Assembly (NCBI RefSeq): GCF_000745965.1 | Contig: NZ_JQKI01000016.1 | Span: forward strand, 1 to 64,000 | Direction of reading: 5' to 3' | From: Edaphobacter aggregans DSM 19364 | Lineage (GTDB): Bacteria > Acidobacteriota > Terriglobia > Terriglobales > Acidobacteriaceae | Length of the DNA stretch: 64,000 nucleotides | Shown: positions 46,190 to 58,439 of the stretch, in pieces | How positions within the stretch are numbered: position 1 is the stretch's first letter | How the letters are laid out: each line of letters opens with the position of its first letter | Made by a program: the position numbers and the translations under genes | The notes under the pieces: generated by a model | Databases searched by the model: none | Told to the model about the DNA's origin: nothing | Seen by the model: the letters and a program-made list of their open reading frames with translations, nothing else

Positions 46190-46439
46190 AGGAGTATGTT
46201 ACAGGAAGATTAATTCAGCGCTGCTCAATTTATGTTGCAAACCGACCTGTATTAGGAGGAAGCTGGAAGGTGCACGTGTAACCAGTAAATTTCGGTAAAT
46301 GCAAGCGCTCCACGCATTTGAATTATGGAACCGCCTATGATTTTTCATAGGTCGTTGTAACCTTAATGAGTGCAAACCCTGAATGTACCTATCTCGGTGG
46401 TTTGGCATGCGATGTGCTCCGCTAACCCTGACGGAAAAG
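46190..46439. promoter_or_regulatory. Leader of the sensor-kinase gene with candidate sigma54 promoter
   Basis: An inverted repeat CCTATGA-TTTT-TCATAGG lies at 46334-46351. Further on, TGGCAT-GCGAT-GTGCT (46403-46418) matches the -24/-12 sigma54 pattern with GG and GC 12 bases apart; it has two mismatches to TGGCAC-N5-TTGCW. Transcription would start near 46429, supporting the ATG at 46440, which has GGAAAAG before it. Tentative. Confidence 0.35.
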
Positions 46440-50862
<4,423 letters not shown>

Positions 50863-50865
50863 TAC

Positions 50866-51942
50866 CTACAACTCCGGCTGAATCACAATCTTCATTGAGT
50901 CCGGCTGCGGATTCGACGCCAGATCGATCGCTGCAACCGCATCTTCAATCGAGAAGCGGTGCGAGATCAGCTGCGTCAGGTCAAAGCCCATGCCGTAGCC
51001 GTTCAATACCAACTGCGCCACCTCGTCGTTGATCGCGACCGACGAGCTGTACGACCCCATCAGTGTCTTCTCATCCATGCACACGGCCGCCGGATCGAAG
51101 GGCGCCTCGCCGTGCTGCGTCGCCGCAAATAGCATCACGCGCCCGCCGGGCCGGATGGCATTCATCGCCAGCGTAATCAGCGCATTCCCGCCCACCGCAA
51201 CCAGCGCGACATCAGTTCCGCGCCCGTCCGTCGCTGCCTTCGCGGCGGCCACCACATCACCGCGCGCGTCCAGCGGACGATCGAGCCCGAACTTCGCCGC
51301 TACCGCGTGTCTCTCCCCGTACAGATCGCTCGTCAGCACGGTTGCGCCAGTTCGCTTCGCCAGCGCGGCCAGCAAAATCCCAATCGGACCCTGCCCAATC
51401 ACCAGCACGGTCTCGTCAGGCTCAAGCGCGAGCATCTCGACGGCCTTGTAGCACGTGTTCACCGGCTCGATAAACGCGGCCTGCTCGAACGGGACGCCGT
51501 CGGGAATCTTCACCAGCCCCTTGCGCACGATCCAATCCATCACGCGGATGTACTCAGCGAAGCCGCCGCCCGAGGGCATAAACGCCGCTGTACAACCGAC
51601 CTTCTTGTAGGTCTCGCACTGCGCGAAGGTCTGCTTGCGGCAGTAGTAGCACTCGCCGCAGGGAATGTGGTGATACGCCATCACGCGGTCGCCAATCGCA
51701 AAGTCGGTAACGCCCCCGCCCACCGCGGCGATCGTGCCGGCCATCTCATGCCCGAAGACACGCGGTGCCGAGTGCGACCCTGTATGAATCTTCTTCAAGT
51801 CCGTCCCGCAGATCCCGCAGGTGTGGATCTTCACCAGCACCTCTCCCGGCCCGATCTCCGGCACGGGAATCGTCTCCACGCGCACATCATTCACGCCGCG
51901 ATACACCGCCGCACGCATCGTCTTCGGCACTTCCATCATCAA
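50866..51942 (-). CDS. Zinc-dependent alcohol dehydrogenase in the hopanoid operon
   Basis: A 358-residue MDR with catalytic-zinc ligands (TCGICGTDLKKIH, FGHEMAGTI), structural zinc cysteines (PCGECYYCRKQTFAQC), and the NAD-binding VLVIGQGPIGIL. It overlaps hpnG by four bases (ATGA) and ends the operon. The sequence is of the sorbitol/threonine-dehydrogenase type. In the hopanoid pathway the enzyme that converts ribosylhopane (an aldose) to the open-chain tetrol (bacteriohopanetetrol) has remained ill-defined, and an aldose reductase of this kind is a reasonable candidate. That role is my inference from location and chemistry. Confidence 0.9.
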   Translation of the reverse strand: MMMEVPKTMRAAVYRGVNDVRVETIPVPEIGPGEVLVKIHTCGICGTDLKKIHTGSHSAPRVFGHEMAGTIAAVGGGVTDFAIGDRVMAYHHIPCGECYYCRKQTFAQCETYKKVGCTAAFMPSGGGFAEYIRVMDWIVRKGLVKIPDGVPFEQAAFIEPVNTCYKAVEMLALEPDETVLVIGQGPIGILLAALAKRTGATVLTSDLYGERHAVAAKFGLDRPLDARGDVVAAAKAATDGRGTDVALVAVGGNALITLAMNAIRPGGRVMLFAATQHGEAPFDPAAVCMDEKTLMGSYSSSVAINDEVAQLVLNGYGMGFDLTQLISHRFSIEDAVAAIDLASNPQPDSMKIVIQPEL

Positions 51943-52655
51943 ACCGCTCCCGTTCTGTTGGCGCCCGCCGCGTCTTTATCCACCAGGAATCTGTTCACGC
52001 TCTCCGCGATCGCCTTCGCCCCCGCAGAACTGTTACTTCCCAGCGCCAGCAGTGATCCCCACAACTGCGGCCGCACAGCAACATGCGCAAGAAATGGCAG
52101 CAACTGCATCTGTCCCTGCCCATCGATGAATGGGTTCAGATCAGGCAACGTCGCGTCCTGCGTATCCGAGACCGCCTTGAAGCAGATCACCGGAACGCCG
52201 CGCATCTGCGCCAGCCGCGCCACCGCAGCGGCCTCCATATCGACCATCGCCGCGCCGTAGGTCTCACGCAGCCGCTGCTTCTCCTGCGCGCCCGCAACCT
52301 GCACCGTTGTTACTAAACGGAGCCTGCGCGCTCCATCCGCAAGCAGGAACCGCTCGCCCGTCTGCGCATCGATGATCTCGGACGGAATGTAGCACTGCCC
52401 TGGCTTCACGATTGCATCGAGCGCCCCCACCCAGCCGACGGAAACCAGCAGATCCAGCGCACCCAGAAACTCCGCAGCCGCAACACTGCGCGTCGCCGCT
52501 GCAACACCCATGCCACCGGCGACTGCAATCAGTTCGTCTTCGCCGCAAATAGTTGTCCACACCGAGATTCCCTTCACGCCGGAACGCTGCCGCTGCCATC
52601 CGCGCACCAGCGGCTTCAGCTCTCCGGGCAGTGCAGCGATGATGCCGATCCTCAT
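51939..52655 (-). CDS. hpnG: Hopanoid-associated nucleoside phosphorylase HpnG
   Basis: A 238-residue nucleosidase/phosphorylase-fold protein: IGIIAALPGELKPLV, VAGGMGVAAATRSVAAAEFLGALDLLVSVGWVGAL, and VDMEAAAVARLAQMRGVPVICFKAVSDTQDA with the conserved Glu and Asp. The family member in hopanoid clusters removes adenine from adenosylhopane, giving (phospho)ribosylhopane. It overlaps hpnA and the dehydrogenase by four bases on each side, which implies a common transcript. Confidence 0.9.
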   Translation of the reverse strand: MRIGIIAALPGELKPLVRGWQRQRSGVKGISVWTTICGEDELIAVAGGMGVAAATRSVAAAEFLGALDLLVSVGWVGALDAIVKPGQCYIPSEIIDAQTGERFLLADGARRLRLVTTVQVAGAQEKQRLRETYGAAMVDMEAAAVARLAQMRGVPVICFKAVSDTQDATLPDLNPFIDGQGQMQLLPFLAHVAVRPQLWGSLLALGSNSSAGAKAIAESVNRFLVDKDAAGANRTGAV

Positions 52656-53662
52656 GCCTTCGGCCCGCCGTACGCAGGTGCGTATCCGTGCTCGACGAAC
52701 CAGTCGATCGCCGCCCGCAACGAGTTGTAGATCGGCAGCACCCTGAAGCCAAGCTCGAGCTCCGCCCTGGCGGACGAGGCAAACATCATCTTCTTTCCCA
52801 TCCGCACCGCCTCGACTGTCGCGCGCGGCTCCTTGCCGCGCAGCCTTCCCGTGATGGTCTCGTCGAAGAACGCGAACCCCATCGCAACGGAGTGTGGCAC
52901 CTTCATTGTCGGCGAGGGCAGCCCCGTAATCGTCGACATCCGATCGAGGATCTGCTTCAGCGTCAGATTCTCTCCGCCCAGGATGTAGCGCTCTCCCGGC
53001 GTCCCACGCTCCAGCGCCACCACATGCATCCGCGCTACTTCATCGACATCGACGAGATTCAACCCTGTATCGACGTACGCCGGAAATTTGCGATTGAGGA
53101 AGTCGACGATGATCCTCCCCGTCGGCGTAGGCTTCGCATCGCCCGGCCCGATCGGCGTCGTGGGATTGAGGATCATCACGTGCTGCCCCGCCTGCGCCGC
53201 CTTGATCGCCTCCTGCTCGCCGAGAAACTTCGATCGCTTGTAGTGCCCGATCATGTCGCCCAACCCGACCGGCGTGTCCTCGTTCACGATCGTCCCATCT
53301 GACCTGAACCCCATCGTCGCGACGCTCGACGTGTACACCACCCGCTGCACACCCGCCTCACGCGCCATCCCCAACAACTCGCGCGTGCCGTCGACGTTGG
53401 CCGCATACATCTCACGCGGCTCGCGCACCCACAGCCTGTAATCGGCGGCCACATGAACAAGCGCATCGCATCCTTCAAGCGCTGAGCGTAGCGACGAAGG
53501 CTCGCGCAGATCGCCGACCACCGTCTCCGCATTCAGCCCGGCCAGTGCTTCCAGGCGGCTCGTCTTGCGAGTGAGCACACGCAGCGAAGCGCCCTCAGCG
53601 GCGTACCTGCGAGCCACATGGGCGCCCACGAAGCCTGTCGCTCCCGTGATGAATACGCGCAC
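52652..53662 (-). CDS. hpnA: Hopanoid-associated sugar epimerase-like protein HpnA
   Basis: A 336-residue extended SDR: FITGATGFVGAHVARRYA for NAD(P), RYS-type catalytic triad with YTSSVATMG and YKRSK, and LNPTTPIGPGDAKPTPTG. The motifs are intact. HpnA proteins occur in most hopanoid clusters; the reaction remains uncertain. Coupled to hpnG by four-base overlap. Confidence 0.9.
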   Translation of the reverse strand: MRVFITGATGFVGAHVARRYAAEGASLRVLTRKTSRLEALAGLNAETVVGDLREPSSLRSALEGCDALVHVAADYRLWVREPREMYAANVDGTRELLGMAREAGVQRVVYTSSVATMGFRSDGTIVNEDTPVGLGDMIGHYKRSKFLGEQEAIKAAQAGQHVMILNPTTPIGPGDAKPTPTGRIIVDFLNRKFPAYVDTGLNLVDVDEVARMHVVALERGTPGERYILGGENLTLKQILDRMSTITGLPSPTMKVPHSVAMGFAFFDETITGRLRGKEPRATVEAVRMGKKMMFASSARAELELGFRVLPIYNSLRAAIDWFVEHGYAPAYGGPKA

Positions 53663-53733
53663 TGTCGATCGTTCCTTTGTGCAGGAAAATTCTTAACCAG
53701 CTGCCAACTCAGCTTCCCAGCTTGTCCGGCGTT

Positions 53734-54180
53734 CTACTCCAGCTTCTCCGGCTCAATCTGGATGTTCTTCTCGCCGGCCGCCTTCTTCTCCCAGTACTTC
53801 TTCACCCAGGCCTCGAAGGTCTTGCCGGCCGCGGTATCGCGCCCCGTGAAGGCCAGCGCGGCGATGTCGGCGTAGCTGACGTTCACCTTGGTCTTCGCGT
53901 TTGTCGGAATGACCCGCACAAACGAGTCCGCAAGCGACGCCCCCGAGCGCCGGTCGAAGAGGTAGCCCTCGACCTTCTCGCCGTTCTTCAGAGTGATCGT
54001 CACATCGCCGCGATAATCGAACGCCTTCTCCAGCGCCTCGCGAACCTCGGCCTCCGACGCGAGTGACGGAATCCAGCCTTCGAGTTTCTCCTTCTCGCGG
54101 CCCGCAATAGTCTCGATCTCATCGGCGTTCTGCTGCCGCAGTTGCTGGATCTTCAGATGTTCTTGCTGCTCCGTTGCCAT
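53734..54180 (-). CDS. Unknown protein inside the hopanoid operon
   Basis: About 148 residues from the ATG at 54180, which lies five bases beyond the hpnH stop, so the genes are tightly coupled. Helical and charged N-terminal half (HLKIQQLRQQNADEI, EVREALEKAFDYRG), then a beta-rich stretch (DVTITLKNGEKVEGYLFDRR, KVNVSYADIAALAFTGRDTA), and a basic helix (FEAWVKKYWEKKA). The beta part could be a small barrel. No signal peptide. Not recognised as a named family; its operon position suggests a part in hopanoid synthesis or membrane placement. Confidence 0.75.
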   Translation of the reverse strand: MATEQQEHLKIQQLRQQNADEIETIAGREKEKLEGWIPSLASEAEVREALEKAFDYRGDVTITLKNGEKVEGYLFDRRSGASLADSFVRVIPTNAKTKVNVSYADIAALAFTGRDTAAGKTFEAWVKKYWEKKAAGEKNIQIEPEKLE

Positions 54181-54185
54181 GGTCG

Positions 54186-55316
54186 TTAGTCTCCCGAGAC
54201 CGGCTGCAGTTGATCGTTGCTCGCGCTCCGGATCTGCACCAGCGGCATCGCATGCGCCGGCTTCCACTCATTCAGCAGCTTCTCCGCTTCAGCGTCCGGA
54301 TAGAGCGACGGCAACATGTACCTCTTCGCCGTCTCAATGAAGCCCTTCAGCGAGCCGAAGTTGTAGTCCACCGCCGAGGCCTCATGCCCCGAGTGCACCA
54401 TGCAGTTCGCACACTGCGGATTGCCGCTCTTTGCGCCGTAGTTGTCCCAGTTGGTCGCCTCCATAAGCTCCTGGAACGAGTCGGCGTAGCCGTCCTGCAG
54501 GAGGTAGCAGGGTTTCTGCCAGCCGAAGATCGAGAACGTCGGCATGCCCCACGGCGTGCACTCGAAGTTTCGCTTGCCCATCAGAAACTCCGCAAACAGC
54601 GGGTGCGTGTTGAACTCCCACGACTTCTTGCGGTTCGAAAGAATCGCGCGGAAGAGCCGGCGCGATTTCGCCTTGCCCAGAAAGTGGTTTTGGTCCGGAG
54701 CCTTGTCATACGTGTAGCCCGGCGACACCATCATGCTCTCAACGCCAGCCGCCATCAGCTGGTCAAAGTGCCGGCGCACGCTATTCGGGTCGGCTCCGTC
54801 AAACAACGTCGTGTTCGTCGTCACGCGGAAGCCCGCAGCCACCGCGGCGCGAATACCTTCCATCGCAATGTCGTGTCCGCCCTCGCGGCATACCGAGAAG
54901 TCGTGATGCTCTTTCTCGCCGTCAACGTGCACCGAGAACGAGAGATACTTCGAAGGCTTGAAGAAGTGCAGCTTCTCTTTGAGCAGCAGAGCGTTCGTGC
55001 ACATGTAGACGTACTTCTTGCGAGCTACCAGTCCGGCGACGATCTCCGGCATGTGCGGGTGCAGCAGCGGCTCGCCGCCGGGGATCGAGACCATCGGCGC
55101 CCCGCACTCCTCTACCGCCTTGAAGCACTCCTCAGGGGTGAGCTCGGACTTCAGGATGTGCGCCGGATACTGAATCTTGCCGCAACCCGCGCAGGCAAGG
55201 TTGCAGCGAAAGAGCGGCTCGAGCATCAGCACCAGCGGGTAGCGCTTCCGCCCCGAGAGCTTCTGCTTCAATACGTACGTTGCGACCGTCCAGGCCTGTG
55301 AAACCGGTACCGCCAT
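54186..55316 (-). CDS. hpnH: Radical SAM adenosyl-hopene synthase HpnH
   Basis: A 376-residue radical SAM enzyme. The 4Fe-4S-binding cysteines are in CNLACAGCGKIQYP (CxxxCxxC) preceded by LVLMLEPLFRCN, followed by SIPGGEPLLHPHMPEI and CTNALLLKEKL. The C-terminal part carries more cysteines (CYLLQDGY, CANCMVHSGHEASA). It joins a 5'-deoxyadenosyl radical to hopene (diploptene), the first side-chain step for extended hopanoids. It starts 27 bases after the shc stop. Confidence 0.96.
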   Translation of the reverse strand: MAVPVSQAWTVATYVLKQKLSGRKRYPLVLMLEPLFRCNLACAGCGKIQYPAHILKSELTPEECFKAVEECGAPMVSIPGGEPLLHPHMPEIVAGLVARKKYVYMCTNALLLKEKLHFFKPSKYLSFSVHVDGEKEHHDFSVCREGGHDIAMEGIRAAVAAGFRVTTNTTLFDGADPNSVRRHFDQLMAAGVESMMVSPGYTYDKAPDQNHFLGKAKSRRLFRAILSNRKKSWEFNTHPLFAEFLMGKRNFECTPWGMPTFSIFGWQKPCYLLQDGYADSFQELMEATNWDNYGAKSGNPQCANCMVHSGHEASAVDYNFGSLKGFIETAKRYMLPSLYPDAEAEKLLNEWKPAHAMPLVQIRSASNDQLQPVSGD

Positions 55317-55343
55317 TCGGAGGTTCCTCCAGAAAAAAGTCTG

Positions 55344-57380
55344 TTAAGCGACAGCCTCTTCGGCTGCCTCGCGCATCATCGCGCGCTCGTATGTCGTCAA
55401 AGCCAGCAGCGGGAAGTACTGCTTGTACAGGTGATACCCCAGATAAAAGACGCGCGGGAAGCCTGTTCCGGTGTAATAACTTTCGCCGTTGCGTCCGGGA
55501 ACCAGCTCGTCCCAGCTTCCATCCTTGTGCTGCCGCTCGATCAGCCAGCGAACGCCCTTGGCCACCGAGTCAGACCGCGTATCCCCGGCTGCCAGCAACC
55601 CAAGAACCGCCCACGCGGTCTGCGACGGCGTGCTCGGCCCGATGCCGCGCTGGTTGGGGTCGTCGTAGGTCCCGCAGGTCTCGCCCCAGCCGCCGTCGGT
55701 GTTCTGCACCATGCGGATCCACTCGGCAGCCTGCTGAATGGCGGGTTCGTGGTTCCACATCCCCATGGCCTCAAGGCCGCGCAGCACCAGGAAGGTGCCG
55801 TACAGGTAGTTCACGCCCCAGCGGCCGAACCAACTTCCGTCCGGTTCCTGTTCCTTCAGGATGAACTGCACCGCCTTCTCCACGCGCGGGTCCTTGCGGG
55901 TGTAGCCATACTGCGCAAGCATCTCGAGCATGCGGCCCGTGATATCAACCGTCGGTGGGTCCAGCATCGCGTTGTGGTCGGCGAACGGGATGTACTGAAA
56001 GATCATCTTCGTGTTGTCTTTATCGAAGCTGGCCCAGCCGCCGTTCTTGCACTGCATCGCCCAGACCCAGTGGATAGCGCGTTGGCAGACCTCGTACTGG
56101 TAGCGCTCACGCGGATTCTCCACGCAGTTCAGCGCCATCAGAACCTGGCCCGTATCATCTACATCCGGGTAAAACTCATTGTTGAACTCGAAGTACCATC
56201 CGCCCGGCTCAACATTCTTGACCTTTTCGGCCCAGTCGCCCTTGGTCCGGACCTCCTTCGAGATAATCCAGTCCGCGGCCTTCAGCAGACGTGGGTCGTT
56301 GCGGCTCACTCCGGCCTCGCCTAGCGCATACATCGCCTGCGCGGTGTCCCACACCGGCGGGAAGCATGGCTGCATCCGGAAGGTCGGCGTCGGGTAGTCC
56401 GGCGTTCCCTCCGGGCAGTCGATGCCCAGTTTCTCGAACTCGTCCATCGCGCGAATCATCTGCGGGTCGTCGAACGAGTAGTCCAGGCACCGCAGCGCAA
56501 CGATCGAGTTCAGCATCGCCGGATAGATCGCGCCCAGGCCGTCGGACTTTTCGAAGCGCTCCAGCATCCACTCCTTCGCCCGACGGATCGCCATCTTGCG
56601 CAGCGGACGAATGTGCACGCGCTCAAACCAGTGCACCATCCGGTCGGTCAAGAGGAAGAAGTTCCGCCAGCTGATCAGGCTCTTCCTGTCCCACCTAAGG
56701 TGAAGGTTCGCGTTCTGACGCCCACCGACGAACAACTCCTCGATGCCCTGCTCGGCCGAAAGCTTCTTGAACGGCTTCTTGGCGTAGATGATCGACAGCG
56801 GAACCAAAATGCCGCGCGACCACGACGAGATCTCGTAGATGTTGAAGTAGAACCAGTTGGGAAACAGAACGATCTCCGGCGGAACCGCCGGCACCGCGTT
56901 GTAGTCGTACTGGCCCAGCGCGCACAGGTAGATCTTCGTGAAGGTGTTGCACTCCGTCACGCCGCCGTTGGCCAGAACCCACTCGCGCGCCTTCACCAGG
57001 ACCGGGTGATCCTTCGACCAGCCCATCAGCTTCAGCGCCAGGTAGGACTTCACGCCGTAGTTGATGTTCGATGGCCCGCCAGGATTGAGGCTCCACCCGC
57101 CGTCCTCGTTCTGATGACGCAGAATCTCGTTCAGCGCCCGCTGCATCTTGCCCGGCTCGCCGGTCCCCAACAGCGTATGCATGAAGATGTAATCCGCCTC
57201 GAGCATCACGTCTGCTTCGAGTTCACCGCACCAGTAGCCGTCTTCGTGCTGCTGGCCCAGCAGCCAATCCTTGGCACGCCGGATCCCCTCGGACACCTTG
57301 TCCAGACCCAGGTCCAGCCGGCCGAAGCGCGGCTGCGCGGGTTGGGTCAGCGTCTTCGGGTTACTTGAAATTTTGCTCAT
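55344..57380 (-). CDS. shc: Squalene-hopene cyclase
   Basis: A 678-residue terpene cyclase with several QW motifs (such as QEPDGSWFGRWGVNYLYGT and QTAWAVLGLLAAGD) and the catalytic DVDDTGQ, the DxDD acid motif that protonates squalene. Acidic second signature and C-terminal YTGTGFPRVFYLGYHLY are typical. It forms hopene and hopanol at the membrane. Follows ispH by 45 bases and is the second gene of the operon. Confidence 0.97.
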   Translation of the reverse strand: MSKISSNPKTLTQPAQPRFGRLDLGLDKVSEGIRRAKDWLLGQQHEDGYWCGELEADVMLEADYIFMHTLLGTGEPGKMQRALNEILRHQNEDGGWSLNPGGPSNINYGVKSYLALKLMGWSKDHPVLVKAREWVLANGGVTECNTFTKIYLCALGQYDYNAVPAVPPEIVLFPNWFYFNIYEISSWSRGILVPLSIIYAKKPFKKLSAEQGIEELFVGGRQNANLHLRWDRKSLISWRNFFLLTDRMVHWFERVHIRPLRKMAIRRAKEWMLERFEKSDGLGAIYPAMLNSIVALRCLDYSFDDPQMIRAMDEFEKLGIDCPEGTPDYPTPTFRMQPCFPPVWDTAQAMYALGEAGVSRNDPRLLKAADWIISKEVRTKGDWAEKVKNVEPGGWYFEFNNEFYPDVDDTGQVLMALNCVENPRERYQYEVCQRAIHWVWAMQCKNGGWASFDKDNTKMIFQYIPFADHNAMLDPPTVDITGRMLEMLAQYGYTRKDPRVEKAVQFILKEQEPDGSWFGRWGVNYLYGTFLVLRGLEAMGMWNHEPAIQQAAEWIRMVQNTDGGWGETCGTYDDPNQRGIGPSTPSQTAWAVLGLLAAGDTRSDSVAKGVRWLIERQHKDGSWDELVPGRNGESYYTGTGFPRVFYLGYHLYKQYFPLLALTTYERAMMREAAEEAVA

Positions 57381-57425
57381 CTACTGCTGACTCTCTCGGT
57401 CTTACGTTGTTCGCGACTTCCCAAG

Positions 57426-58439
57426 CTACCGGGAAGCCGCAGGAGCAGACTGAATCGCCTGCACGATCTCAGGTGGCAAGCCAAAACGCACATTTTCGGG
57501 CATCACCTCGACCTCATCGACCGAGCCGTACCCCTTCGTCTGCAGATAGCCAACTACGTCCTGCACCAGAACCTCAGGCGCCGAAGCACCGGCGGTCACT
57601 GCCACGGTATCCACGCCGTCCAGCCACTCCGACTGGATGTCCTCAGCCTTGTCGATCAGGAAGGAGCTCGTCCCAAGATTCTGCGAGACCTCCACCAGAC
57701 GGTTTGAGTTCGAGCTGTTGCGCGACCCCACCACCAGCACCACATCCGCACCATGGGCAACGTTCTTCACCGCCGTCTGGCGGTTCTCCGTCGCATAGCA
57801 GATGTCCTGCGCGTGCGGCCCCACGATGTTGGGGAACTTCTTCTTCAGCGCATCGATCATGTACTTCGCCTCGTCCAGCGAGAGCGTCGTCTGCGTCAGG
57901 TACGCCACCTTGTCCGGGTCCGGAACCACCAGCGCCTCAACCTCTTCCACCGTCGAGACGACCTGGGTCACCTCCGGGGCCTCACCCTGAGTCCCCTCCA
58001 CCTCTTCGTGATCGCGATGCCCAACGAGCACAAGCGAATAGCCTTGCTTGGCGAACTTGATCGCCTCCACGTGAACCTTTGTCACCAGCGGACAGGTCGC
58101 GTCGATCACCTTCAGCCCGCGCTCCTTCGCCCTCTGCCGCACCGCCGGCGAGACGCCGTGCGCCGAGTAGATCACCCGCGCGCCCTCCGGAACTTCGTCC
58201 AGCTCGTTCACAAAGATCGCGCCCTTCTTCGCCAGGTCGTTGACGACATAGCTGTTATGCACAATCTCTTTGCGGACGTAGATCGGCGCGCCAAAGGTCT
58301 CAAGCGCGATCCGGACGATATCGATCGCCCGAACCACACCGGCACAGAAGCCGCGGGGCTTAAGAAGGAGGACGCGTTTGGTTGAGGTGGAAGGGCCGCT
58401 TTCTGTTACAGCAGCATGATCAAGGGTCGTAGTAGTCAC
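57426..58439 (-). CDS. ispH: 4-hydroxy-3-methylbut-2-enyl diphosphate reductase
   Basis: A 337-residue iron-sulfur enzyme with the three cluster cysteines in PRGFCAGVVRAID, IDATCPLVTKVH and DICYATENRQTA, plus NSSNSNRLVEV and TAGASAPEVLV. Last step of the MEP pathway, giving IPP and DMAPP. First gene of the hopanoid operon, so precursor supply and hopanoid synthesis are probably linked. The start codon ATG at 58439 has no strong ribosome-binding site nearby. Confidence 0.96.
   Translation of the reverse strand: MTTTTLDHAAVTESGPSTSTKRVLLLKPRGFCAGVVRAIDIVRIALETFGAPIYVRKEIVHNSYVVNDLAKKGAIFVNELDEVPEGARVIYSAHGVSPAVRQRAKERGLKVIDATCPLVTKVHVEAIKFAKQGYSLVLVGHRDHEEVEGTQGEAPEVTQVVSTVEEVEALVVPDPDKVAYLTQTTLSLDEAKYMIDALKKKFPNIVGPHAQDICYATENRQTAVKNVAHGADVVLVVGSRNSSNSNRLVEVSQNLGTSSFLIDKAEDIQSEWLDGVDTVAVTAGASAPEVLVQDVVGYLQTKGYGSVDEVEVMPENVRFGLPPEIVQAIQSAPAASR

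Follow-up and report, generated by a model that had tools for sequence, protein, structure and literature searches.

In the window, i.e. the 64,000-nucleotide stretch of DNA of the soil bacterium Edaphobacter aggregans DSM 19364 analysed here, the seven genes ispH, shc, hpnH, ug3, hpnA, hpnG and DH1 follow each other on the minus strand from 58439 to 50866. ispH (57426..58439; GTG start) encodes 4-hydroxy-3-methylbut-2-enyl diphosphate reductase (NCBIfam NF002189, 458 bits, cut-off 444; Pfam LYTB), shc, or hpnF (55344..57380), squalene-hopene cyclase (TIGR01507, 728.5 bits, cut-off 431.1), and hpnH (54186..55316) the radical SAM adenosyl-hopene transferase (TIGR03470, 522.9 bits, cut-off 225.05). 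ug3 (53734..54180), which is named by position, has its ATG start 5 bases past hpnH and encodes a conserved protein of 148 aa with no assigned function; it matched nothing in Pfam or NCBIfam at 1e-3 and, in Pfam at E<=10, gave a single sub-threshold match (E 0.57), and it sits between hpnH and hpnA in the named relatives as well. hpnA (52652..53662; GTG start) encodes the hopanoid-associated SDR or "sugar epimerase" (TIGR03466, 480.1 bits, cut-off 367.65). Between hpnA and DH1 lies hpnG (51939..52655) for a protein of the nucleoside phosphorylase/nucleosidase family, while DH1 (50866..51939), ug1 by position, encodes a Zn-MDR protein of 357 aa counted from the ATG (Pfam ADH_N and ADH_zinc_N). 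shc and hpnH, both above their curated cut-offs, are 27 bases apart. Thus, the gene order, the single strand and the scores of HpnA, HpnH, Shc and IspH bear out the first-pass annotation of a seven-gene hopanoid operon, here in an Edaphobacter-like genome and ending in a zinc dehydrogenase. The four-base overlaps described for its last three genes hold for hpnA/hpnG (ATGA); hpnG and DH1 overlap by 4 bases only if DH1 starts at a TTG (51942, 358 aa) and by 1 base (TGATG) from the next ATG, and the catalogued DH1 protein has 357 aa, i.e. the ATG form. In relatives, 50 of the 66 hpnA/hpnG pairs measured share exactly 4 bases, and hpnG and DH1 are at most 30 bases apart in 65 of 74 when the most upstream possible start is used.

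The hpnG name is backed by position and fold family (Pfam PNP_UDP_1, 78.6 bits) and not by score. HpnG of the window is below its family cut-off (TIGR03468, 82.6 vs 187.1 bits), none of 41 other genomes from the phylum reaches this cut-off, and 6 of 14 control genomes likewise give a match to the model at E<=1e-10. The HpnG-like gene of one further locus (L076) scores higher as an MTA/SAH nucleosidase or futalosine hydrolase, with every score below cut-off. HpnG is expected to strip adenine from adenosylhopane. For HpnK, the source genome has one match, also below cut-off (177.4 vs 232.6 bits).

DH1 combines a GroES-like domain (PF08240, 98 bits) with an NAD(P)-binding domain (PF00107, 74.7 bits). 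It has the catalytic-zinc pattern C41/H61/E155, structural-zinc cysteines at 91, 94, 97 and 105 and Asp202 at the NAD(P) selector (numbering of a query beginning at 51930), and the eight residues of the zinc motifs are invariant across all 114 non-identical DH1 sequences. Its median conservation (79.5%) is level with that of shc (80.0), hpnH (80.3) and hpnA (79.2) in the 42 loci with all seven genes among the best 80 of 562 relatives. DH1 is above no NCBIfam equivalog cut-off; the best match is scyllo-inosose 3-dehydrogenase IolM (165.2 of 450 bits), followed closely by L-threonine 3-dehydrogenase (164.7 bits, cut-off 380), and the match to Ahr is weak (77.9 bits, cut-off 470). No curated model places DH1 above cut-off as a sorbitol (L-iditol 2-) dehydrogenase, and human SDH (1pl6, E 2.6e-28) ranks after threonine and xylitol dehydrogenases. 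The label "L-iditol 2-dehydrogenase" on a DH1-type protein is the name given by the database source itself. PDB profile searches (A1, A2) gave no match at E<=1e-60, which is too strict a threshold. Polyol-type MDRs act mostly on secondary alcohols, and sorbitol dehydrogenase interconverts alditol and ketose at C2 rather than aldose and alditol. Likeness to sorbitol dehydrogenase, which had been thought to fit the chemistry, is therefore by itself no fit for reducing the C1 aldehyde of an aldose.

The coupling of the dehydrogenase to hpnG, also part of the first-pass annotation, is conserved, and the outcome that it named as refuting, no genomic association, did not occur. Going upstream from DH1 on its own strand, the first recognised gene is hpnG in 77 of 80 named loci (the best 80 of 562 relatives), with more than 500 bases between the two in 3 of them; the linkage is hence not due to chance. 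Because these loci are, by title, nearly all from Acidobacteriaceae or unplaced Acidobacteria, this count is largely the record of one family. Among 297 genomes of the phylum, 46 have DH1 (a 47th match, at 36%, was left out), and hpnH is present in 42 of these 46 (Fisher p 1.7e-25, without correction for kinship), though DH1 is present in only 42 of the 76 hpnH genomes. Of the five families that have DH1, four retain its linkage to hpnA/hpnG. Of the 34 hpnH genomes without DH1, 3 are in DH1 families and 31 in 14 other families, whose members must manage by other means. When stretches of 6.8-17 kb from 20 of the 34 genomes (L093-L112) were searched for a DH1-like gene near hpnH, 19 had no match at E<=1e-6 and one had a 24% match; the gene calling there is rough, and reductases of other families could escape it. 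DH1-like proteins among the matches listed (120 per search) include those of Bryobacteraceae, Acidobacteriia and one Rhizomicrobium MAG. DH1 has no match (tblastn, E<=1e-40) anywhere in a plasmid collection, which covers single replicons, and is thus absent at this threshold from all 31 of its replicons with hpnH, every one from another phylum. Three of these records, from Pseudomonadota or Actinomycetota, have hpn clusters that share hpnH, shc, hpnD and a gene of ispH type; two of the three also have hpnA plus an HpnG-like gene, and two of the three hpnC plus hpnE. The three stretches list no MDR dehydrogenase in gene tables that are incomplete. The Streptomyces stretch has an iron-type alcohol dehydrogenase at its margin.

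All 46 DH1 genomes also have a second zinc dehydrogenase, DH2, which either adjoins DH1 or, as in the source genome, heads hpnC-hpnD-hpnE on another contig outside the window (contig G000:C18, locus L129, 9979-11046, minus strand). In 41 of the 80 loci (best 80 of 562 relatives), the next gene downstream of DH1 is DH2, and many relatives have DH2 before hpnC. Outside the family of the window, DH1 and DH2 are side by side in 17 of 17 DH1 loci, 15 of which have the pair immediately after hpnA (12) or hpnG (3). For instance, L079 runs shc-hpnH-hpnA-DH1-DH2 and continues with two genes of HpnC/D type and one of HpnE type, and in family f28 DH1 comes after hpnA without hpnG in between. One genome, G221 (100% complete), has the pair and lacks hpnH; the neighbours of the pair there are presumably a WYL-type regulator, a QueF-like gene and a proline-dehydrogenase-like gene. 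Because a joined DH1-DH2 protein (P0137) lacks the end of DH1 as well as the beginning of DH2, it was excluded as a likely chimera of the assembly.

Like the sorbitol, xylitol, L-threonine 3- and scyllo-inosose 3-dehydrogenases, both proteins have two MDR domains, a Cys/His/Glu zinc site and a four-cysteine motif; unlike these enzymes, they are below all listed NCBIfam equivalog cut-offs and form clades of their own. The Cys/His/Glu(EP) pattern with four structural cysteines is present in 114 of 114 DH1 and 56 of 56 DH2 sequences, with EA replacing EP in 4 of the 56. The two differ at the NAD(P) selector, which is acidic in every one of the 114 DH1 sequences (113 Asp, 1 Glu); 55 of the 56 DH2 sequences have V/G/A there, with K/R/N next. 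Read from this one motif, the signatures suggest that DH1 is NAD-type and DH2 NADP-type. The second-best solved relative of DH2 by sequence, the insect NADP(H)-dependent ketose reductase 1e3j, likewise has non-acidic residues at the position of Asp in NAD enzymes; unlike the role proposed below for DH2, it acts on fructose/sorbitol and not on a lipid. Sister pairs are present in six more loci, where no hopanoid gene was recognised within the stretch covered; cofactor signatures are opposite in four of the six, and two have Asp in both members.

Hopanoids are lipids of the membrane that resemble sterols. The route to ribosylhopane by HpnH and HpnG is established in other bacteria. That the enzyme for the next step, to bacteriohopanetetrol (BHT), is ill-defined, as first noted, agrees with the passage of a 2025 paper stating that it is not established, and the passages of the open-licence literature covered here name none (PMC12583986, PMC5462960, PMC5358736, PMC8537080). 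In the parts covered, Sinninghe Damste et al. 2017 (PMC5462960) describe acidobacterial BHP gene clusters A, B and C containing ug1, ug2 and ug3; ug1 and ug2 were both drawn as unknowns; ug1 was left without function, while ug2, which has about 350 aa and is described as a Zn-binding alcohol dehydrogenase, was tied to the squalene genes, and HpnA was suggested for the conversion of ribosylhopane to BHT. They also cite Schmerk et al. for some evidence that hpnA is dispensable for BHT in Burkholderia cenocepacia, and C. thermophilum is reported to have BHT but no ug2. As here, their clusters contain hpnA-hpnG-ug1, ug2-hpnC-D-E and shc/hpnH-ug3, and strain KBS 83, which the paper names (locus L184 here), has the concatenated order with DH1 at the ug1 place and DH2 at the ug2 place. 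Absent from the covered text of that paper are the pairing, any homology between ug1 and ug2, and the split in cofactor signature.

Based on the operon, the linkage, the pairing, the intact zinc motifs and the opposite cofactor signatures shown here, we suggest a model, to which we give an even chance, in which DH1 and DH2, both Zn-dependent MDR oxidoreductases of the polyol type, would complete the ribose-derived C5 hopanoid side chain in Terriglobia-type acidobacteria. In this model, HpnH would join adenosyl to hopene, HpnG would remove adenine to give ribosylhopane, and the DH1-DH2 pair would then act on its sugar. We infer substrate, direction and division of labour as follows: DH2, with its NADP-type site, would be the likelier reducer of the C-35 aldehyde to BHT, and DH1, with its NAD-type site, would more likely work on a side-chain hydroxyl or might itself be the reducer. 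As judged by the selector motif, DH2 would be no worse a match for an NADPH reductase than DH1, whose NAD-type signature would be no advantage in a biosynthetic reductase. The two are good candidates for finishing the hopanoid sugar tail. Counting against this model are the 34 of 76 hpnH genomes without DH1, the report of BHT without ug2 in C. thermophilum, the pair without hpnH in G221, the sister pairs with no recognised hopanoid gene, the lack of hpnG between hpnA and DH1 in f28, the scores of the HpnG-like gene of L076 and the preference of polyol-type MDRs for secondary alcohols.

The original proposal that DH1 alone is the ribosylhopane reductase, converting the aldose aldehyde to the terminal alcohol of BHT with NAD(P)H, survives in part: hpnG is directly upstream, linkage to hpnA-hpnG is conserved, the zinc motifs are intact, the enzyme of the step is stated not to be established (2025 paper), and MDR aldehyde reductases exist, DH1 itself matching Ahr weakly. 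However, DH1 is one of a pair in 46 of 46 genomes, and this constant partner would be left without explanation by a single reductase. Together with the NAD-type signature, the best family matches to inosose and threonine dehydrogenases, the absence of DH1 from 34 of 76 hpnH genomes and 31 hpnH plasmid-collection replicons (E<=1e-40), and G221, this makes the proposal unlikely. Passenger status in the operon, with the pair acting on a free polyol or cyclitol, would account for G221 and for the sister pairs; we regard it as distinctly unlikely given the linkage to hpnA/hpnG in four of five DH1 families and 77 of 80 named loci (best 80 of 562). Least probable, and in our view very unlikely, is a role in the squalene/terpenoid half, as proposed for ug2 from its place before hpnC (PMC5462960). 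DH2 does head hpnC-hpnD-hpnE in the source genome and precedes hpnC in many relatives, but HpnC, D and E are established to make squalene without DH2, as the covered part of that paper has it, and the companion of DH2 in 46 genomes is DH1, which is located with hpnA/hpnG, the f28 pair coming after hpnA.

The opposite cofactor signatures, seen also in four of six sister pairs, the polyol/secondary-alcohol family and the patchy spread relative to hpnH would be consistent with a lineage-specific oxidation and reduction of the side chain, i.e. epimerisation or isomerisation via a ketone with DH1 using NAD+ and DH2 NADPH. Ribosylhopane would then be reduced by an unlinked enzyme, which DH1-less hopanoid producers must have. 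Against this, cofactor use is read from one motif, both proteins have Asp in two of the six sister pairs, and the passages of the literature covered here describe no unusual BHT of these bacteria, although the Rohmer degradation data of PMC5462960 would probably not reveal one; we consider it rather improbable. At a still lower probability, we speculate that an ancient module of an NAD-type and an NADP-type enzyme was recruited into the Terriglobia hopanoid operon, where a side-chain hydroxyl would be oxidised and the ketone reduced with stereo-inversion or carbonyl migration, and that the BHT would have a stereochemistry or substitution unlike the proteobacterial form.

In sediments, BHT and the compounds derived from it are major biomarkers of bacteria. 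With the findings here, the idea of a single reductase becomes the idea of an enzyme pair, and two linked, paired candidates in culturable bacteria make the BHT-forming step testable. If editing of the side chain were true, a BHT differing from the proteobacterial form would be a possible acidobacterial biomarker.

Seven genes make up the hopanoid operon of the window, as the first-pass annotation had described: ispH, shc, hpnH, the gene for a 148-aa protein, hpnA, hpnG and DH1, a zinc-dependent dehydrogenase of the MDR superfamily (50866..51939), follow each other in this order and with short gaps on the minus strand, from 58439 down to 50866. Of the four-base overlaps noted at the same time, that between hpnA and hpnG (ATGA) stands, while hpnG and DH1 overlap by four bases only if DH1 starts at a TTG; with the likely ATG as start, the overlap is a single base. 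The stop codon of DH1 lies 3 bases from that of a convergent gene (49405-50862) and, therefore, DH1 is the last gene of the operon. From their motifs, we take the plus-strand genes at 46383-50862 to encode a histidine-kinase-like protein and, at 49405-50862, a sigma-54-type response regulator. The conserved 148-aa protein encoded after hpnH (53734-54180, minus strand) has no family match in Pfam or NCBIfam; its gene stays beside hpnH in the window's family (f1) and in one genome (G203) of family f28, and by position corresponds to ug3 of PMC5462960.

DH1 is tightly linked to hpnG. Close relatives named among the protein matches listed are Edaphobacter and Granulicella. In a set of 80 named loci with a relative of DH1 (the best 80 of 562), the first gene recognised upstream of DH1, in the same orientation, is hpnG in 77. 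Three of the 77 have a gap of more than 500 bases (L158, L178, L207), and upstream of DH1 no query gene was found in the other three loci (L187, L196, L198). Using the most upstream start, the two genes are at most 30 bases apart in 65 of 74 measurable pairs. In the 42 of the 80 loci with all seven genes, the median identity of DH1 (79.5%) is on par with that of shc, hpnH and hpnA, while hpnG (51939-52655, minus strand) evolves much faster (41.8% vs about 80% for its neighbours). No HpnG in 41 further genomes of the phylum passed the TIGR03468 cut-off, and this model is a poor fit to the HpnG of this phylum. Two records titled Rhodanobacteraceae (L165) and Verrucomicrobia (L205) carry Acidobacteriaceae-type hopanoid operons and are probably misnamed or misbinned.

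DH1 has a constant partner, a second zinc-dependent MDR protein (DH2) with 33-38% identity to DH1. DH2 directly follows DH1 in all 17 DH1 loci outside the window's family (f28, 12; f2, 2; f39, 2; f50, 1) and is the nearest recognised downstream gene in 41 of the best 80 of 562 loci; DH1 is followed shortly by the contig end in some of the remaining 39. In the window's genome (G000, with the window on contig C11), DH2 is on contig C18, ~3.5 kb from hpnJ, as the first gene of an operon with HpnC and HpnE, both above their cut-offs, and HpnD, slightly under (250.3 vs 278.6 bits). DH2-type genes occur in 57 of 297 genomes of the phylum at E<=1e-90, of which nine with weaker matches (E 2e-98 to 5e-114) were excluded. 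Six of these nine (G051, G063, G096, G123, G165, G267) also carry hpnH, with no linkage seen between the two genes; G267 has both on one contig, ~14.5 kb apart. All 46 genomes counted for DH1 fall within the remaining 48, leaving G132 and G273 with DH2 only. In G273, an hpnG copy is close to a contig end and, therefore, DH1 may be lost to assembly. The DH2 orthologue of G132 (L216) stands without DH1, and the opposite-strand genes there resemble, by motifs, what we take to be a methionine-salvage dioxygenase and an enolase-phosphatase.

The polyol-dehydrogenase zinc pattern (Cys of C-x-T-D, His of GHE, Glu of EP) and the four structural cysteines are kept in 114/114 DH1 and 56/56 DH2 non-identical sequences, with EA in place of EP in four DH2. 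In such enzymes, one residue usually decides between NAD and NADP. At this position, DH1 has Asp (113/114) or Glu (1/114), and the xylitol dehydrogenase 7y9p, a solved relative, has Asp; 55/56 DH2 carry V, G or A, with K, R or N as the next residue, and one carries Asp, and DH2 aligns here with 1e3j, a ketose reductase that depends on NADP(H). These signatures suggest that DH1 is NAD-type and DH2 NADP-type.

Cell-free reduction of ribosylhopane has reportedly been published for Methylobacterium organophilum, with NADPH. The formation of ribosylhopane by HpnH and then HpnG is established in other bacteria (PMC12583986, in the part available). We suggest that the DH1-DH2 pair most likely works on the sugar of ribosylhopane, with the substrate step inferred. 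In this model, HpnH and then HpnG would provide ribosylhopane, and DH2, rather than DH1 as previously proposed, would be the better candidate for the biosynthetic reduction of the aldehyde to bacteriohopanetetrol (BHT), while DH1 may contribute to that reduction or act on a hydroxyl group.

DH1 matches at E<=1e-60 in 47 of the 297 genomes; 46, all at least 46% identical, were counted, and G120 (36%) was left out as a different subfamily. HpnH is above cut-off in 76 genomes and occurs with DH1 in 42 (Fisher p 1.7e-25, ignoring kinship and with DH1 confined to five families). Of the four genomes with DH1 and no HpnH (G113, G211, G221, G282), three bear hpnA and ispH on the DH1 contig (G113, G211, G282), G113 also shc. 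At the thresholds used, hpnA, hpnG, DH1 and DH2 are all missing from G007. HpnH is also present on 31 of 72,556 plasmid records, among which DH1 has no match at E<=1e-40; no MDR gene was seen in the incomplete gene tables of three of these clusters.

Several observations count against the proposed role, the plasmid result among them. Of the 34 genomes with HpnH and no DH1, 31 hopanoid genomes are spread over 14 other families. Three such hopanoid genomes (G096, G123, G165) have two replicons each and are presumably Chloracidobacterium. BHT and BHT cyclitol ether are among the reported lipids of C. thermophilum (PMC5462960, available text) and, therefore, BHT can probably be made without DH1. 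Moreover, in the f28 loci (L073-L086 except L081 and L083), hpnA is followed by DH1 and DH2 without an intervening HpnG gene. All TIGR03468 hits in f28 are weak (in 11/13 genomes, at most 71.6 bits), and at the threshold used (E<=1e-10) this model also gives hits in 6/14 control genomes. The single f28 protein scanned (L076) gives higher scores with models of MTA/SAH nucleosidase and of futalosine hydrolase, with no score reaching cut-off; it is possible that a gene of this kind removes adenine in f28. Finally, G221 retains the DH1-DH2 pair without hpnH. There (L083) and in L081, both of f39, the pair adjoins what are presumably genes for a WYL-type regulator and a protein resembling proline dehydrogenase; L081 presumably also has a QueF-like gene.

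Part of this arrangement was already drawn by Sinninghe Damste et al. 2017 (PMC5462960), in whose accessible text hpnA-hpnG-ug1 and ug2-hpnC-D-E appear, ug1 is unknown, ug2 is a Zn-binding alcohol dehydrogenase tied to squalene genes, and HpnA is named as a possible BHT-forming enzyme. Because of the gene order in L184 (KBS 83, a strain named there), ug1 is DH1 and ug2 is DH2 by position. The homology of ug1 and ug2, their constant pairing, their opposite cofactor signatures and their proposed place at the BHT-forming step were not met in that part of the paper. As of 2025, the available portion of PMC12583986 describes the BHT-forming enzyme as not established, and, around the hpn clusters of Alphaproteobacteria, its authors saw no gene that stood out as a new candidate.

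In a tree of representatives, DH1 and DH2 fall into two sister groups (supports 0.97 and 0.966), each also taking one member of MDR pairs from G051, G063, G267, G132, G230 and G078. These tandem pairs (L213, L214, L215, L217, L218, L219) have no recognised hopanoid gene in the stretches around them; four of the six have the NAD/NADP split, and L218 and L219 have Asp in both members. Single, unpaired relatives occur in L090, L212 and L216. Thus, the hopanoid DH1-DH2 pair seems to have been recruited as one branch of a two-gene unit that is older, and the substrate of the sister pairs could give a clue to the chemistry of DH1 and DH2.
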